Shown: piece by piece, positions 1 through 57,285 of the stretch | How the letters are laid out: the number at the start of each line of letters is the position of its first letter | How positions within the stretch are numbered: the stretch's first letter is position 1 | Assembly (NCBI RefSeq): GCF_000217795.1 | Contig: NC_015681.1 | Location: 1,913,244 to 1,977,243, forward strand | Source of the DNA: Thermodesulfatator indicus DSM 15286 | GTDB taxonomy: Bacteria; Desulfobacterota; Thermodesulfobacteria; Thermodesulfobacteriales; Thermodesulfatatoraceae | Direction: 5' to 3' | Length of the DNA stretch: 64,000 bases | Position numbers and translations under genes: made by a program | Notes under the pieces: generated by a model | The model's database searches: none | Told to the model about the DNA's origin: nothing | What the model saw: the letters and a program-made list of their open reading frames with translations, nothing else

Positions 1-551
1 GGAATATTTTCTTTTTTGAGGAAATCTTCTATTTCTTCGCGAGAAACCATGAGAAGAGGCCTTATAAAAATGCCTCCCCTTTTAACCGGGATACCAGCAA
101 GCCCACGCCTACCAGCCCCTCTTATAAAGCGAAGAAGTACTTCTTCGGCTAAGTCGTCAGCCTGGTGGGCAAGGGCTACTCTATTTAACTCATATTCCTC
201 GGCAATTCTTTCAAAAAAGCGATACCTAAGTTCTCGCCCGGCTGCTTCAAGCGAGATCTTTTCCCTTTTGGCATAAAGCTTTACAGGAGCTGCTGCTAAA
301 ATAAATGGAAGTCCTAGTTTTTCTGCGTATGATTTGACAAATAGGGCTTCCTTTAAGGATTCTTTGCGCAAGCGGTGGTCATAATAGGCCACGAAAAGGT
401 CGAGTTCAAGTTCATCTTTTAAGGCCAAAAGTACGTGAAGTAAGGCCATAGAATCTGGCCCGCCTGAGACCGCTAAGAGTACTCGCTCCCCACCAGAGAG
501 AAGGCCAAATCTTTCTATATCTCGCCTGACCTTACGAATGAGTTTTGACAT
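1..551 (-). CDS. tilS: tRNA(Ile)-lysidine synthase TilS (N-terminal part, runs off the window)
   Basis: TilS attaches lysidine to C34 of the AUA-reading tRNA-Ile in the cytoplasm, using ATP and lysine. The ATG is at 551-549 and the frame stays open to the window edge, about 183 codons. The PP-loop ATPase signature SGGPDS lies at residues 29-34, followed by the family's YYDHRLR stretch and a later LAHQADD segment; the C-terminal tRNA-binding part is beyond the window. The start lies inside the end of the upstream unknown gene (20-base overlap), and there is no strong Shine-Dalgarno, so translation is probably coupled to that gene. Identity is confident from the motif and general similarity. 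Confidence 0.93.
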   Translation of the reverse strand, partial: MSKLIRKVRRDIERFGLLSGGERVLLAVSGGPDSMALLHVLLALKDELELDLFVAYYDHRLRKESLKEALFVKSYAEKLGLPFILAAAPVKLYAKREKISLEAAGRELRYRFFERIAEEYELNRVALAHQADDLAEEVLLRFIRGAGRRGLAGIPVKRGGIFIRPLLMVSREEIEDFLKKENI

Positions 552-38997: not shown

Positions 38998-39925
38998 AAC
39001 AAAATCTTAACTTAATAGAAATTAATTCAGGGGTAAGATTTTTAGCGTTATTTAATAAGGAACAAGTTTTTTTAGTTTTTTGTTGTTTTAAATAGGCAAT
39101 GGCTAAATTATAGATAATTGAAGGATCGTCAGATATCTTAACAGCTTTTTCAAGAGTTATTTGTGCTAAATATGGTTTATTTTGTAATAAGTAGATAGCT
39201 CCCATATTGTTTAAAATATCAGCCTTTTTTTGTGTGTCTTTTTCTTCAGCTAAAGCCTGTTGGTAATAATAAATAGCTTTTTCGTACTGGCCACTTTGGC
39301 GAGCTTCTTCGGCGAGTAAAAGATAATTGTTAAACTGGTTTTTAATGTTAGAAGAAATTTTGAATTGTTTGTTTGTTGTATTGTTATTAACTTTTATATT
39401 GTTTTTTGTCAATGTTTTATTGTCCTGTAATAAAGATAGTGTTCTCCTTTCTTTTGCTAAATCTTTTTGTGTGAGTTTTTCTTGATTGAATTTGTTTTTA
39501 ATCGTGCTGTTAATTATTTGTTTTTCTTTTGTTTTTATAGTATTTTGAGTTTCAATTTTTTTAACATTTTCCTTTTGAGATAAAGTTTTTTGGTTTTTAT
39601 TTTTTTGGGGTTGTTGAAAATTTTGTTCTACTGAAGAGATATTTTGTTTTTTGAAAATGTGTATATAGTTGTTTTGAGGTATCGGTTTTTTTATTGATTG
39701 TCTGTTGGTTAACTTGGTTTGTCTTTTTAAAGGTTTTTGTTCAAAAGTAAAAAATAACATTAATACTAGACACCCTAGTAGCAATGAACAAATTATTATA
39801 TATAGATAAATTTTATTTTTTTTAGTCTGATTTTCTTTTTCTCTATTGAGATTGTTAGGTTTGATAGAAAATTCTGTCTGTTGGTTTTCTTGTAATTTTC
39901 TTATAGCCTCAAATAATTTGCTCAT
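38990..39925 (-). CDS. Membrane-anchored TPR protein of the pilus operon (MshN-like)
   Basis: The 311-aa protein has a cytoplasmic N-terminus, one membrane helix (about residues 38-62), a long Lys/Asn/Gln-rich linker and C-terminal TPR repeats (about 205-300, e.g. GQYEKAIYYYQQALAEEKDT and NKPYLAQITLEKA). This is the plan of MshN, which in MSHA operons follows the secretin. It is the last gene of the minus-strand operon, with the start overlapping the secretin end by four bases. The gene is strikingly AT-rich, and the linker may be poorly constrained. The role, probably periplasmic scaffolding, is inferred. Confidence 0.7.
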   Translation of the reverse strand: MSKLFEAIRKLQENQQTEFSIKPNNLNREKENQTKKNKIYLYIIICSLLLGCLVLMLFFTFEQKPLKRQTKLTNRQSIKKPIPQNNYIHIFKKQNISSVEQNFQQPQKNKNQKTLSQKENVKKIETQNTIKTKEKQIINSTIKNKFNQEKLTQKDLAKERRTLSLLQDNKTLTKNNIKVNNNTTNKQFKISSNIKNQFNNYLLLAEEARQSGQYEKAIYYYQQALAEEKDTQKKADILNNMGAIYLLQNKPYLAQITLEKAVKISDDPSIIYNLAIAYLKQQKTKKTCSLLNNAKNLTPELISIKLRFCSN

Positions 39926-41400
39926 TTTATTATGCTAGCCTTTATTAGAATTATTAGTTCTACTTTTGATGACGATTCTTCTTTGCTTTTGAATATGTTT
40001 CCGATAATAGGTATGTTGCTTATTACGGGAACACTATTATTATTTTTTTCGTTTTTATTCATTATTAGGCCACTTATGACAATTAAATCATTATTTTTGG
40101 TTTTTACGACGGTGCTTGTTTCGCGAAGGCTTATTTCTGGAAGGGTTATTTCATAATCGGCTATTTTGCTTTTTTCTAAGCTAATAATATCACTTTTTAT
40201 AGGTACTATAGATAGTAATATATTATTTTTGTCATCAATATACGGAGTTACTTTGAAGGCTAAACCATCAAAAATAGAACTAGTTTCAATGTTTGTACTT
40301 GCAGTAGTTATTCCTTCAGATGATGTTGTTTCTTTTGTTATTTCTTTAATATATGCGATAGATTTTCCAACTCCTATAAAAGCTGGTTGGCCATGTAGAG
40401 TTCTGATTCTCGGATTAGAAACTATTTTTACTTGTCCATACTTTTCTATAGCATTTACAATTATATTAAAATAAGGGTTTCCTGTAAGGGTAAAAGTGAA
40501 AGCTCCTGAATTGTTCCATAAAAAACTAGTTGTGCTACTTAAATGTAGTGTATTCTTTAAATCATTTTGTAAAATATTTTGCCAGTTAATTCCAAGTTGA
40601 TAGTTTTTGTTTAGGTTTACTTCGATTATTTCTGCCTCTATTAATACTTGTTTTGAGTACTTTTCTTTTACCTTGTTAATAAAATTTGATATTCTTCTTA
40701 AATTTTCTGCTTTATCTCTTACATATAATGTGCCTGTATACTTATTTAATATGTATTTGCCATTTTTTGATAATAAATTTTTGATATTTTTTTCTATTAT
40801 TGAAAATATGTCATTTTCCTTTGAGTTTCCACTGAGTTCTATTTCTCCTTTTAAGGGATTACTTGTATTCTGATTGTCTTGATTACCTCCTAAGACATCG
40901 CCTCCGATATTGTAGTTAACTTTTCGTACTGTTGTTAAAAAGTTTAGGTCAAATAACTTTTCGTCGTATAGTTTAACATAAATAATTCCATCTTTTATTT
41001 TATATGTTGTGCCTGTAAGGCGTGTAATAACATCTAATGCATTCTTTAGTGTTACATTGTTTAGATTTATAGTTATAAATTTTTGCTCTTCAGGTAGTTC
41101 TTTTTTTATATCATTATCAATAATGAGATTTAAATCAGCGGTTCTAGCAATTAAAGCCAGTATTTTTTCAAAATCTTCATTGATAACAGAAATGCTTATT
41201 TTTTCTTTTTCAATAGGCGATAGTTTTTTGAATATAGGTTTTAGATTAGATAGTGTTAAATTGTTTTCTGTTTCTTTTTGAGGCGCCACTGGCAGGTTTA
41301 TTTGTGGTAAATTATCCGTTTTTTTTGGTGGAATTGTTTGTTGGCTTGCACACGCAGTAAGTGCGAATATAATAAATAAGATCGCTATGCTTTTTTTCAT
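39922..41400 (-). CDS. mshL: Outer-membrane secretin of the MSHA-like pilus system (MshL/PilQ family)
   Basis: Secretins form the outer-membrane pore for the pilus. The 492-aa protein has a lipoprotein signal with Cys17 (LTACAS), an N-terminal STN-like short domain (about 65-130, FEKILALIARTADLNLIIDND), and a C-terminal secretin domain (about 255-490) with QVLIEAEIIEVNLN, VSNPRIRTLHGQPAFIGVG and the end motif VPVISNIPIIGNIFKSKEE. MshL-type secretins are shorter than PilQ, as here. It is AT-rich compared with the upstream ATPase genes. Confidence 0.88.
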   Translation of the reverse strand: MKKSIAILFIIFALTACASQQTIPPKKTDNLPQINLPVAPQKETENNLTLSNLKPIFKKLSPIEKEKISISVINEDFEKILALIARTADLNLIIDNDIKKELPEEQKFITINLNNVTLKNALDVITRLTGTTYKIKDGIIYVKLYDEKLFDLNFLTTVRKVNYNIGGDVLGGNQDNQNTSNPLKGEIELSGNSKENDIFSIIEKNIKNLLSKNGKYILNKYTGTLYVRDKAENLRRISNFINKVKEKYSKQVLIEAEIIEVNLNKNYQLGINWQNILQNDLKNTLHLSSTTSFLWNNSGAFTFTLTGNPYFNIIVNAIEKYGQVKIVSNPRIRTLHGQPAFIGVGKSIAYIKEITKETTSSEGITTASTNIETSSIFDGLAFKVTPYIDDKNNILLSIVPIKSDIISLEKSKIADYEITLPEISLRETSTVVKTKNNDLIVISGLIMNKNEKNNNSVPVISNIPIIGNIFKSKEESSSKVELIILIKASIIK

Positions 41401-41417
41401 AATTTGCCTCGTCTATT

Positions 41418-41849
41418 TTATACTATAATTTTTTCTCCTGGTTTTATGTTTATATTTTGACCATTAATTTCTATTTCAACTTTATTGTGGAAAATTTTTA
41501 TTATTTTAATATTCTTTATTGTGTCACCTTCTTTTAAAAACATTCCATTTATTATACAAGCTTTTTTATTGTTTATTACTAAGATCCCTGATAATAGCAA
41601 TATTTGTTTTTTATTTGTCTTTTGGTTAATAAATTTTTGCTTGTTGTTTAGTTCAAAAATTTCTCCGGATATTATGAATCTTTCGTTTGTTTTGTTTTTT
41701 TGGGGTAGAACAATGGTTTTTGCTCTTAATGTGTTATTAATTTTATTGTATTTACTGTTAATTTGCCATATTGCTATGCTTATCGATAAGAATGTTGTGA
41801 ATATCATTATCCACATTATAATTATGTTGACGTTTTTTAGTTTTATCAT
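41418..41849 (-). CDS. Small pilus-assembly protein (MshK/PilP/GspC-like)
   Basis: A 143-aa protein with one N-terminal membrane helix (about residues 9-28) and a periplasmic part ending in a small beta-rich motif (SGILVINNKKACIINGMFLKEGD, then IKIIKIFHNKVEIEINGQNI) resembling the PilP/GspC homology region. In MSHA operons MshK occupies this place before the secretin and is thought to link the inner-membrane complex to it. Similarity is weak, so the assignment rests on topology and position. Confidence 0.6.
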   Translation of the reverse strand: MIKLKNVNIIIMWIMIFTTFLSISIAIWQINSKYNKINNTLRAKTIVLPQKNKTNERFIISGEIFELNNKQKFINQKTNKKQILLLSGILVINNKKACIINGMFLKEGDTIKNIKIIKIFHNKVEIEINGQNINIKPGEKIIV

Positions 41850-41854
41850 TTTTA

Positions 41855-42259
41855 TTAAAAAAATTCTATCTTTTCTCCTGATAATTTTAATACTCTAAAA
41901 CAAAAATCTTTCTGACATACCTTTTTGAATGTAAATGATTTTATAAATAAATAGGAATTTTTATCATATAAACTATCTAAATATAAAGATAGTATTCTCT
42001 GGTTATTAACTATTGCGTTAATTTCTATATTTGATCGTACTATGTTTTTAGGTTTATATTTTTCTATAAAGTCTTTTATTTTTTGATTATTTGTTTTTTG
42101 AATTTTTAGTTCTTGTTCTAATTTTTGATTTACTTTTAAATAATAGTTATATTCTTCCCAGTTTTTAAAAGCTAAGCCCCCTGAAACTGCAAAAATTATG
42201 CAAATAGTAAATATTCCTAAAATCGTTTTGTATTTATCAAAAATTTTTAGCATTTTCAT
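41855..42259 (-). CDS. PilO/MshJ-like inner-membrane alignment protein
   Basis: A 134-aa bitopic protein: a membrane helix at about residues 13-31, then a coiled-coil stretch (about 38-66), then a small alpha/beta domain. Length and order after the PilM/N-like gene fit PilO/MshJ, which with PilN aligns the motor and secretin. Two Cys (KVCQKDFCF) near residue 115 could form a disulfide. Sequence similarity alone is weak. Confidence 0.6.
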   Translation of the reverse strand: MKMLKIFDKYKTILGIFTICIIFAVSGGLAFKNWEEYNYYLKVNQKLEQELKIQKTNNQKIKDFIEKYKPKNIVRSNIEINAIVNNQRILSLYLDSLYDKNSYLFIKSFTFKKVCQKDFCFRVLKLSGEKIEFF

Positions 42260-42260
42260 T

Positions 42261-53939: not shown

Positions 53940-56213
53940 TTAAGTTTCAAATGGTCGGGCACTCATGATGATTATTTGCCAACCAGAGTCGGCCAGAGAG
54001 TTTAAAATATTGAGGGTTCTCTTAGCGCGGTTTTCATCAAAATAAGCTAGGGGTTCGTCAAGCAGGAAAAAGGCCTTATGTTCAAAGAAAAGCTCAACCA
54101 AGGCAAGCCTTGCCGCCAGAAGCAACTGCACTTTAGTGCCGTCTGAAAGGGAATCAATAGGAAAAGCTTTTCCCTCCTGATTAATAGCTACCCAATCTCT
54201 CTTGAAAGCTTCTCTGTCAAAAAATAAGGAAGGGAAATTGAACCTAACAGAAATATAGCGACCTTCGGTTATTTCTTTAAAAATTTCTGCCACTTTATTT
54301 TCAAATTTTTCAAGATAGGCCTGATTTATTCTTTCTTTTAGTCTGGCGAGTATATCTGCTGAAGTGCGTAAGACTGCTTCAAGCCGCTTAAACCTAAGCA
54401 ATTGCCTTTCAAGAATTTTTTTCTCATCAAGAAGCTCTTCATAGCGCGCGAGATCTGGTTTGCGAGCCACCCGGTCTTCATAAAGATCTTTTTCCTTGTC
54501 AAGTTTGATAATCTCAGCTTCAGTTCTTTCTAAGTTTTGGGCTACCTGGTTTAAAAGGTTTGATATGTTTTTTAGGCTGTGGCCTTGATAAGCTTTAATG
54601 GTTTTTAGAGAAAGCCCTTCTTCGAAGTCTCTAGGGTAATCTTTTATTTTAGTCTCAAGGTTTTTGATTTCTGTTTTTTTAGCACTTAGTTCTTCTTTTA
54701 GGGCTAGATATTTCTCTTCAAGATTTCTACGCTTTTGTTCAAGTGTTTTTATTTGGTTTCTAATTTCTTTGGCAAGCTTTTCTTGCTGGACAACTTTTTT
54801 TTGATTTTCTTTGAGATTTTCAATTTCTTTTTGAGTCTCTTCAATCTTATTTTTGAGAGGAGGTAAGTTTAGTTCTTCCTCTAAAGATGTTTCCAGTTGT
54901 TTTAATTTCCTCAGCTTTTGGATAGTTTGAAGTAGATTTTCAGGGGTCAAAAACTCTTTTTCAAGGTGAGTAATCTTTTTAGAGAGGTCAGCGAGTTTTA
55001 CTTGAGGATAAATGTTTAGTTCAAGGTCCTGATACTTGAGATTTACTTTACCCTGGAATTCGATATTTCTAGAAGAGACTTCTTTACCGTTTATTAAAAT
55101 AGTATTTCCAGCATTTAAAATTTCTATTTTCCCCCGAGAAAGAGAGGCCATTTTGAGAAAAGTTCGCCATTCATTTAGATAATCTTGGAGTTTTTCTGGA
55201 TTTTGATTGGCTAAAGGCCCTAAAATTTCCTTTAACTTCTGATATTCTTGCTGTTTAGTAAACTCCTGGTGTAGTTGTTTAAGCTTGTCCTTAAGCAATC
55301 GGATTTCTCGGTTTATGAAATTTTTTTGGGCAAGCTGAGAAATAAGCTTTCTCTCTTTTTCTCCTAAAGCCTCAAGTTCTTTTTTAATTGTTTCTTTTTC
55401 TGCTTCTATTTTTTTGATTTTGGCTGTTAATGTTTTCTCTTCTTCTTTGAGTTTTTGAAGTTTATTTTCTAGGTATTCAATTTCCAGGTAGGCCTGAAGA
55501 TAGCCTAGCTGTTCTTTTTGGTGGGATAGTTTTTTTTGGTTGGCTTTAAGCTTTTCAAGCTTTTCTTTAACTACTTCTAGCCGCTTTTTGTTTTTTTCAA
55601 ATTCTTCTTTTTCCCTTTCAAGGCGAAGAAGCTCCTGGTTTATATTTTTCAGTTTTTCTTGTACTTCTTGTTTCATGCGGCCAAAAGGGTTCTGGCGTAA
55701 GCCACATTTTTGAAGGATAAAATCGTCTCGAATCCGCCTCTCAAGGCCTTCAATGCTTGCAGACTTAAGAACTTTATCGAAAACTTCTCGCAACCCCCGG
55801 TTGCCAGCCACAGAAAGATCCCTTTCCCGCAAAACTAGAAGACCTTCAAGGACTTGTCTGAAATGTTTATACCCCTTTTTTTCCAGAAATTTTTTGATGC
55901 TATCAGGGCTTTCAAGGTCTATCCCGTCTGTTCCCCTAAAATAAGGACGCTTTTCAAGTCCGCTCAATTTTAGCTCATATTCATGGTCTTCTATGAGGAA
56001 ATTTAACTTAATAACCGGAGGGATTCCCTGACCTTTTGTTGTTTTTTGAACTAAAATTTGCGGGCTTAATGAAAAAACATCAAGTATTCCTTCAATAATG
56101 GTGGACTTACCAAATTCGTTAGGTCTGGCAATAAACCTTAGCCCGTTATCAAACAGAAATTCGTGATCCGAAAGAACTTTATAGTTTTTAAAAGAGATTT
56201 TAGTAAGCTTCAT
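53940..56213 (-). CDS. SbcC/Rad50-like (YhaN-like) coiled-coil ATPase without zinc hook
   Basis: The protein is a 757-aa SMC-like ATPase: an N-terminal half-ATPase with Walker A RPNEFGKST at 30-38, a long coiled coil (about 160-345 and 425-600), and a C-terminal half with signature SLSDGTKVQLLLAARLAL and Walker B AFFLLDEPLAYFDENRAKR. No CxxC zinc hook interrupts the coils; instead a small beta-rich insert (about 355-410, IEILNAGNTILINGKEV) sits at the middle. The first Gly of Walker A is replaced by Arg30. It resembles YhaN and overlaps the nuclease gene by 14 bases. DNA break processing is the likely role. Confidence 0.8.
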   Translation of the reverse strand: MKLTKISFKNYKVLSDHEFLFDNGLRFIARPNEFGKSTIIEGILDVFSLSPQILVQKTTKGQGIPPVIKLNFLIEDHEYELKLSGLEKRPYFRGTDGIDLESPDSIKKFLEKKGYKHFRQVLEGLLVLRERDLSVAGNRGLREVFDKVLKSASIEGLERRIRDDFILQKCGLRQNPFGRMKQEVQEKLKNINQELLRLEREKEEFEKNKKRLEVVKEKLEKLKANQKKLSHQKEQLGYLQAYLEIEYLENKLQKLKEEEKTLTAKIKKIEAEKETIKKELEALGEKERKLISQLAQKNFINREIRLLKDKLKQLHQEFTKQQEYQKLKEILGPLANQNPEKLQDYLNEWRTFLKMASLSRGKIEILNAGNTILINGKEVSSRNIEFQGKVNLKYQDLELNIYPQVKLADLSKKITHLEKEFLTPENLLQTIQKLRKLKQLETSLEEELNLPPLKNKIEETQKEIENLKENQKKVVQQEKLAKEIRNQIKTLEQKRRNLEEKYLALKEELSAKKTEIKNLETKIKDYPRDFEEGLSLKTIKAYQGHSLKNISNLLNQVAQNLERTEAEIIKLDKEKDLYEDRVARKPDLARYEELLDEKKILERQLLRFKRLEAVLRTSADILARLKERINQAYLEKFENKVAEIFKEITEGRYISVRFNFPSLFFDREAFKRDWVAINQEGKAFPIDSLSDGTKVQLLLAARLALVELFFEHKAFFLLDEPLAYFDENRAKRTLNILNSLADSGWQIIIMSARPFET

Positions 56214-57285
56214 ATAAGTCCTGTAAGAACTTTTCCTTTAGAAATTCTTTGAGACGTTGAGGTTGCTGAGAAACCATTAGACCGTAAAACAAAAATTCTT
56301 TTACTTCGGCTTGAATTTCTGGAGATACATCTTCTAAAAGCTCAAGTATGATTTGAGAGATAACATCATCTGGTGAAAATACTTTAGCACCTTCGGAGAT
56401 ACTGATTCTTTCTTCAAAGGAAGAACAAAGTTTGCGAAGACTGTTTTCAAAAAGTTCAAGATATGAATCTATACGCACGTAAACTTTTGAAAAATCAAGC
56501 TCTTCAAGTTTTTTAAGGTCATCTTCTGAAAAAATTTGCAGACGAAGATAAGAGGGGACATCGTCAAAAGAGTGTTTGGTTACCTGTAAAGGTGTTTGGG
56601 AAAGATCTACTTTTAGAAAGCCACCTTCTGCCTGGGCTGTAGCCAGAAATTCAAAAGGCACAAAGGCTCCACTGTAAAAAGCATTTTCTCCAATCTTTTT
56701 ATAGCTGTGATAATGCCCCAGAGCTAGGTAATGATAACGTTTGAGGATATCTGGTTTAAGGGGCTTTTCGTATTTTTCATTAGGCCCAAAGGCTCCGTGA
56801 AGAATGGCTATCTGGTAGTCAGCCTCGGGGAATAAATCTGGTTGGGGATAACCAAAAAAACCAGCGTAAAAGGCTATTTTTTGCTCTGGGGTTTGGATAA
56901 TCACAGAAGGACGATCTGGTGAAAGGAAATGGATGTTATCTCTTTCCAATAGGGCGGCCACTTCAGGGCGACGGTAGATTGAATCGGAAGTATAGGCATC
57001 ATGACCACTTATTTCGTTTTCCGTATTCTGGCCGCCTCCAGGAATGAGTACAAAATGAATTTCCGGAAAAAGGCTCAAAATAGAGAAGAACTCAAGGGCT
57101 ATTTTGGTAGAAATAGCATTTGAATCAAAAGTATCACCTGCAAATAGCACTACGGCAACGTTGTTAGCCTGAGCCTCAGCTAGAATCTTTTTTAGTTTGG
57201 TGAAAATTAAAGATACGTGTTCTTCAGCTGAACGCTTTGGAGGAACCACCCCAAGATGTAAATCAGATAAGTGATAAAGCTTCAC
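56200..57285 (-). CDS. SbcD/Mre11-like (YhaO-like) DNA nuclease with altered motif III
   Basis: The 361-aa metallophosphoesterase has motif I SDLHLG (7-12), motif II AGDTFD (49-54), HGAF near 168 and LGHYHSYKK near 200, with the following YSGAFVPFEF typical of Mre11. Motif III, normally GNHD, is changed: PGGGQNTEN is inserted at 82-90, and the HD pair appears as SGHD at 93-96, followed by a recognisable AYTSDSIYRR. The conserved Asn metal ligand therefore seems to be missing or displaced. It is encoded just upstream of, and overlapping, the SbcC-like ATPase, its probable partner. Confidence 0.82.
   Translation of the reverse strand: MKLYHLSDLHLGVVPPKRSAEEHVSLIFTKLKKILAEAQANNVAVVLFAGDTFDSNAISTKIALEFFSILSLFPEIHFVLIPGGGQNTENEISGHDAYTSDSIYRRPEVAALLERDNIHFLSPDRPSVIIQTPEQKIAFYAGFFGYPQPDLFPEADYQIAILHGAFGPNEKYEKPLKPDILKRYHYLALGHYHSYKKIGENAFYSGAFVPFEFLATAQAEGGFLKVDLSQTPLQVTKHSFDDVPSYLRLQIFSEDDLKKLEELDFSKVYVRIDSYLELFENSLRKLCSSFEERISISEGAKVFSPDDVISQIILELLEDVSPEIQAEVKEFLFYGLMVSQQPQRLKEFLKEKFLQDLYEAY

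Follow-up and report, generated by a model that had tools for sequence, protein, structure and literature searches.

Complexes of the broad Mre11-Rad50 superfamily combine a calcineurin-type nuclease with a split ATP-binding cassette (ABC) ATPase on a coiled-coil arm, and the zinc hook of the ATPase and the Asn of the nuclease motif GNHD are regarded as their hallmarks. SbcCD has adjacent genes for the two subunits, with a CxxC hook, the PF13558 domain and an LSGGE signature in SbcC and GNHD in SbcD. A related pair, YhaN/YhaO, is the SbcFE or SbcEF of Bacillus subtilis. One paper implicates SbcEF in double-strand-break repair and calls it poorly characterised (PMC6452273). The Lamassu protein LmuB is likewise a short Rad50-like ATPase, in which the Walker B Glu is reported to be generally changed to Gln (PMC10586767). 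Here we describe a divergent nuclease-ATPase pair of this superfamily in a 64,000-base window (the whole stretch of DNA analysed) of Thermodesulfatator indicus DSM 15286 (contig NC_015681.1, positions 1,913,244 to 1,977,243), whose genome is a single contig of 2,322,224 bases.

The pair consists of a gene for an Mre11/SbcD/YhaO-like nuclease (56200..57285, minus strand, 361 aa, GTG start) and one for a Rad50/YhaN-like coiled-coil ABC ATPase (53940..56213, minus strand, 757 aa), two open reading frames (ORFs) that share 14 bases at the 3′ end of the nuclease gene. Together with its orthologs in five further genomes it forms what we call the window family, found in G000 (the window genome), G004 to G007 and G021 (T. 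dismutans). The family provides six nucleases and five complete ATPases, and thus five complete pairs; the sixth ATPase, in G006, is interrupted by a contig end. We found no description of the family in the open-licence papers searched, few of the queries being aimed at it directly.

Results

The ATPase head sets the window family apart from SbcC. In a tree of 39 heads the family falls inside a 30-row YhaN-like supergroup, which also holds the annotated 'YhaN family protein' of locus L121. The remaining nine rows, of SbcC and other Rad50-like proteins, are separated from this supergroup at 100/99. A clade forced to unite the family with six SbcC rows was rejected by the approximately unbiased (AU) test (p 0.0002), and the joined head profile scored 204.7 against three YhaN-like rows versus 80.3 against six SbcC rows. 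The ABC signature has the YhaN-style form LSDGT, invariant in 5/5 family ATPases (L689-SDGT-693, 54135..54149, on the minus strand like every feature of the pair given below), in contrast to the LSGGE of the SbcC rows, and the Walker A motif (R30-PNEFGKST-38, 56100..56126) retains NExGK[ST] in all five. Taken together, the rejected SbcC clade, the supergroup, the head profiles and the LSxGT and NExGK motifs argue for a YhaN/YhaO-like kinship of the ATPase, as the initial annotation had tentatively suggested, and we consider kinship of this kind very likely for the pair as a whole.

The same annotation had drawn attention to an Arg at the first position of Walker A. This Arg is real in the window ATPase, but the position reads R, K, E, A and A among the five complete orthologs, and an Arg can thus be discarded as a trait of the family. 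Two departures that it did not mention are the LSDGT signature and the end of the ATPase, which falls just past the last core strand and has Ala in place of the SbcC switch His in 5/5 proteins (A752, 53958..53960, in a by-eye alignment; the window protein terminates five residues further on). The ATPase of G004 has a His one position beyond this place. The Walker B motif and D-loop (F715-FLLDEPLAYFD-726, 54036..54071) follow the family form DEP[LF]AYFD, with D719, E720 and D726 invariant in 5/5. The SbcC Walker B family PF13558 had no match in the window genome, in a search whose control was positive in 12 of 14 genomes. PF13514 (AAA_27) reached 18.6 bits against 22 when searched by protein and 22.3 when searched by genome with the neighbours included; as it matched 13 of the 14 control genomes, this search is without discriminating power.

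Between its head segments the ATPase is modelled by AlphaFold, at low confidence (mean predicted local distance difference test score, pLDDT, of 62 from a two-row alignment), as coil, short strands and coil, comprising an outgoing arm (about residues 178-358, 55140..55682), a beta-rich apex (about 359-403, 55005..55139) at the place of the SbcC zinc hook, and a returning arm (about 404-648, 54270..55004). A sequence scan of the five complete family ATPases found neither CxxC nor a transmembrane (TM)-like stretch, and the window protein has a single Cys, in agreement with the hookless, beta-rich coil centre first reported for it; the six canonical SbcC rows all carry CPxC there. The SbcC arm is also longer, five of the six SbcC proteins measuring 999-1225 aa and that of Thermus 905. 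TM-like stretches occur in 10/10 F13 rows, 3/3 YHA rows, 2/2 Y842 rows, Monoglobus, Vescimonas and one of three GTHD-type rows; a TM-like hairpin was not found in G370, G258 or the annotated YhaN of L121, and is thus not universal among YhaN-like rows. The scan patterns were relied on for CxxC and TM-like stretches alone, those for Walker A and motif III having misread some rows.

The apex does resemble that of another hookless group. Beta-apex hookless pairs occur in the phylum (G052, G123, G178) and on rhizobial and Variovorax plasmids (L098, L099, L125), and share with the window family the lack of a hook and of a TM-like stretch, together with a beta-like apex; they differ in their longer ATPases (875-904 aa), a retained GNHD and a Walker B with DD where the family has DE. 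The family apex aligned in register with that of eight G052-group ATPases at a score of 30.0, which none of 300 column shuffles attained (maximum 24.9; reversed control 16.6), and only two of the 16 sliding windows scored above 20, namely 321-450 and 361-490. By eye, the coil centre also has a beta-like stretch in the rhizobial and Variovorax plasmid ATPases and in the partly masked ATPase of G381. A union of the family heads with those of the beta-apex group was compatible with the data (AU p 0.453). The beta apex is probably common to the family and these longer hookless ATPases, and with this similarity it is probably not unique to the window family. Another compact hookless pair, at eight loci (L100, L101, L102, L103, L105, L109, L112 and L113), combines a GNHD nuclease of about 350 aa with an ATPase of about 770 aa that has a TM-like apex and in which the switch His is replaced by Ala or Ser (FSAKGE, FSSKGE).

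In the nuclease, a calcineurin-type phosphoesterase with a Pfam Metallophos match of 29.4 bits, the motifs are intact except at motif III. Motif I (D8-L-H10, 57256..57264), the His of motif IV (H163, 56797..56799) and motif V (G190-H191-Y-H193, 56707..56718) are invariant in 6/6 orthologs, as are G50, D51, F53 and D54 of motif II (G50-D51-T-F-D54, 57124..57138). Motif III reads PGGGQNTENEISGHDAY in the window nuclease, PGNHD being replaced by P82-GGGQNTENEISGH-D96 (56998..57042). This lengthened form, PGGG-x(5)-E-[IV]-SGHD, occurs in all six nucleases, with P82, G83-85, E91, S93, G94, H95 and D96 invariant; the insertion followed by SGHD that had been singled out at the outset is therefore a stable character, and chance or sequencing error as its source is ruled out by this conservation. 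All of D8, H10, D51, H95, D96, H163, H191 and H193 are unchanged in 6/6. The Asn missing from the rebuilt motif is a metal ligand in Mre11 structures. The His that follows we take to be His84 of E. coli SbcCD, the His of GNHD. For the E. coli enzyme, one study used H84Q as its nuclease-deficient SbcCD mutant (PMC6265447).

Among 51 nucleases, motif III is GNHD in 38, GNHS in one, GTHD in five, the window-family form in six and not readable in one; this tally excludes six of 13 further loci, namely G295 (a duplicate row) and G185, G199, G145, G255 and G158 (filtered out). The best non-family match in the phylum scan was the G381 nuclease (92.9 bits), whose motif III region PGTHDCYNASSVYRRPEF aligns against SGHDAYTSDSIYRRPEV of the window. 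This comparison suggests that a change of Asn to Thr may have preceded the insertion, and it is plausible that PGTHD represents an intermediate toward the rebuilt motif. The five nucleases with PGTHD, which has Thr at the Asn ligand position, are YhaO-like and come from L074, L111, L149, L150 and L064. Short YhaO-like nucleases of about 255-266 aa (L065 7483-8271, L067 7644-8411 and L068 5924-6724) have no coiled-coil ATPase in their listed neighbouring ORFs.

The six family members form one clade (100/100) in both nuclease trees, one of 44 and one of 51 rows, and group at 92/92 with the beta-apex pairs, the short nucleases and G381. Seven SbcD sequences stand apart in a clade of their own (99/99 and 100/99), a set from which we left out a Paracoccus nuclease lying beside the Sphingomonas row. 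The AU test was compatible with a union of the family with the beta-apex group (p 0.423) or with three YhaO-like rows (p 0.336). The SbcD model TIGR00619 scored 47.7 bits against the window nuclease, under its cut-off of 77.65, which only 8 of 14 control genomes pass. A search with the G381 nuclease recovered the family in five of 395 genomes (46-75 bits), and in T. dismutans it matched the family nuclease and not the canonical SbcD at an expectation value (E) of 1e-6. The AlphaFold model of the nuclease (two-row alignment) has a mean pLDDT of 64, with residues 84-95 of motif III below 50; its Foldseek matches 1 to 48 are all Mre11, SbcD or complex entries, at template modelling scores (TM-scores) of at most 0.43.

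Profile surveys, confined to the host's own phylum, found a high-scoring family nuclease in six of 99 genomes (G000, G004-G007 and G021). Canonical SbcD (at least 190 bits) was detected in 32 of the 41 genomes of the order, corresponding to 31 of 35 non-carriers and one of six carriers, T. dismutans, which has canonical SbcCD and the family pair together. In the other five carriers the sole matches of the SbcD profile were the family nucleases themselves, at less than 36 bits. Canonical SbcC (at least 30 bits) showed the same pattern, with 28 of 35 non-carriers and one of six carriers; in G005 and G006 the SbcC search gave only 23.8-bit matches, in frames of about 450 aa. Within the genus, five of eight genomes have the pair and no SbcD, one has SbcD alone and two have neither. 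That SbcCD was not found in five of the six carriers points to replacement of a housekeeping complex, and we think it likely that the pair replaced canonical SbcCD in these genomes. T. dismutans (family code f3) joins G005 in both gene trees and G006 (f1) in the nuclease tree, in starred groupings that suggest transfer; the pair may thus have moved between lineages. A contig scan with the window nuclease found one locus, in T. dismutans, using single-sequence peptide patterns that miss distant relatives. The closest sequenced relative of T. dismutans is reported to be T. indicus (PMC4911364).

The gene order cobyrinate-synthase-like gene, nuclease, ATPase is found in the window and in G007, where a small ORF is interposed; in the remaining carriers the neighbours differ. 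In four genomes the neighbours resemble housekeeping genes by eye. T. dismutans alone has a DNA methylase and helicases, including an SNF2-type helicase, near the pair. At another of its loci (L116 5648-6235, plus strand) lies a decayed second copy, of which a C-terminal ATPase piece (an ORF of 195 aa) remains, with 93.7% DNA identity to the intact copy over 987 columns; a 2.9-kb segment upstream is likewise duplicated (89.4%), and type I restriction genes lie downstream. Against PADLOC the window ATPase matched LmuB (2.2e-13) and the nuclease had no match at E 1. The Lamassu partners LmuA and LmuC were not found beside the ATPase, whose adjacent partner is the Metallophos nuclease and whose other flanking genes encode CheX and a CobB/CobQ-type enzyme. 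Viral scans returned two weak matches for the nuclease and none for the ATPase. At E 1e-5 no plasmid record matched the ATPase. The nuclease matched 16 plasmid records and 118 phage records, in every case below 60% identity, and 112 of the phage records came from Staphylococcus phages. A viral or plasmid origin of the pair was set aside, no close relative having appeared among the viral, plasmid and phage records. Elsewhere in the window, positions 39000-42260 are low in GC (0.20-0.28 per ORF) and lie, by eye, within an apparent pilus or secretion gene cluster.

Discussion

As far as sequences can tell, the window pair is a previously known kind of complex in a new variant form, in which the hook is missing, the apex is beta-rich and motif III has been rebuilt. 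The initial annotation's view that both subunits diverged together is borne out by the orthologs, all five complete pairs showing changes in both proteins. With SbcCD the pair shares adjacent genes for the nuclease and a split ABC ATPase on a coiled-coil arm, as well as the calcineurin fold and its motifs, and it probably has the same cellular job. It lacks the SbcCD hallmarks tested (the hook, PF13558, GNHD and a place in the SbcC clade of ATPases), yet most likely works like SbcCD. Its likeness to YhaN/YhaO lies in the NExGK[ST] and LSxGT motifs, the missing zinc hook and the position in the head tree; many YhaN-like rows differ in having a TM-like hairpin where the family has a beta apex, and motif III is rebuilt in the family, in a comparison that had no B. 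subtilis sequence. We propose, with a probability of roughly 0.6, that the pair is a complete and conserved beta-apex YhaNO-like complex of the Mre11-Rad50 type that replaces SbcCD and is still an ATP-gated metal nuclease. Two nucleases and two ATPases would assemble into a DNA-binding head that engages ends or hairpins, and ATP would open and close this head over the nuclease. Like the zinc hook, the beta apex would join the two arms. The nuclease presumably works with Mn2+, and one of two conserved residues in the rebuilt loop, E91 or S93, would substitute for the lost Asn. The job of the complex would be that of SbcCD, to trim and open ends that are blocked or form hairpins in repair and replication. 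A more specific version, in which a soluble beta apex substitutes for the zinc hook, Glu or Ser rebuilds the metal site and transfer spread the machine that replaced SbcCD in a thermophilic lineage, is possible but doubtful.

Several observations weigh against this interpretation. The head tree leaves the family unjoined to the beta-apex group, and the sister of the family within the supergroup is not settled by the tree; the 92/92 join of the nucleases falls under the starred level. A clade of SbcD and the family nucleases survives the AU test (p 0.235 and 0.203), and the whole-nuclease profile scores best against SbcD (163.8, compared with at most 130.2 for the hookless groups). Probable SbcD ORFs score much like family members in the search with the G381 nuclease (59.5 bits for G375, for example), an overlap which means that this search discriminates little. 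The structure models of both proteins are of low confidence. The apex window 281-410, which includes the strands, scores just 19.2, so that the apex match leans on the stretch immediately C-terminal of them, and at an hhalign probability of only 43-59% homology of the two apices is likely, short of proof. The Fisher tests on the distribution (p 0.0009 for SbcD and 0.005 for SbcC, from counts tallied by hand) ignore kinship among the genomes, and the two genomes of the genus with neither system have completeness values of 83 and 96.

The nuclease results in particular would suit a canonical, fast-evolving SbcCD that lost its hook and Asn, the YhaN-like look of its ATPase being due to convergence or long-branch attraction. 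The surviving SbcD clade, the top SbcD profile and the long stem branch of the family in the nuclease tree are all in keeping with this, and five carriers without SbcCD are to be expected if the pair is their SbcCD. We nevertheless find it quite improbable: the ATPase does not join SbcC (p 0.0002) and has no CxxC, SbcC_Walker_B is not in the genome, the SbcD model stays below its cut-off, T. dismutans carries the pair in addition to canonical SbcCD, and the apex resembles that of another hookless group. The initial annotation had weighed a canonical placement in which structural alignment restores the hook and the Asn; neither feature is seen in the sequence and the SbcC clade is rejected, while the nuclease alone is compatible with SbcD.

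That annotation had also raised a role in defence. A Lamassu-like or YhaNO-like system against mobile elements, with a nuclease that cuts foreign DNA and a loss of SbcCD unrelated to it, would draw on the LmuB match, on the methylase and SNF2-type helicase near the T. dismutans pair, on the decayed copy next to type I restriction genes and on the transfer suggested by the grouping of T. dismutans with G005 and G006. The LmuB match, however, spans parts of the ATPase that are general to Rad50-like proteins, the partner is Mre11-like and not LmuA or LmuC, the Walker B Glu is intact, PADLOC has no match for the nuclease, and the neighbours outside T. dismutans look like housekeeping genes; we regard a defence variant as unlikely. 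Slightly less probable is a nuclease that is catalytically dead or nearly so, in a complex serving as a sensor or tether of DNA ends. The Asn of motif III is gone in 6/6, and the changes at the first Gly of Walker A and at the switch His may slow ATP turnover, yet the invariance of all eight catalytic Asp and His positions would be unexpected in a dead enzyme, and the Asn has been lost in a different way, as PGTHD, in five of the 51 nucleases. From the motifs, the nuclease of the proposed YhaNO-like complex is fairly likely to be active.

The three types of apex found in related ATPases, the zinc hook, the TM-like hairpin and the beta domain, can now be compared with one another. Genome surveys also call for caution, since a genome in which a family search scores SbcC as missing may nevertheless encode a stand-in complex. 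A lineage in which a hookless, Asn-less relative occurs alone, canonical SbcCD not having been found, offers a natural test of whether the housekeeping job can be done without hook and ligand.

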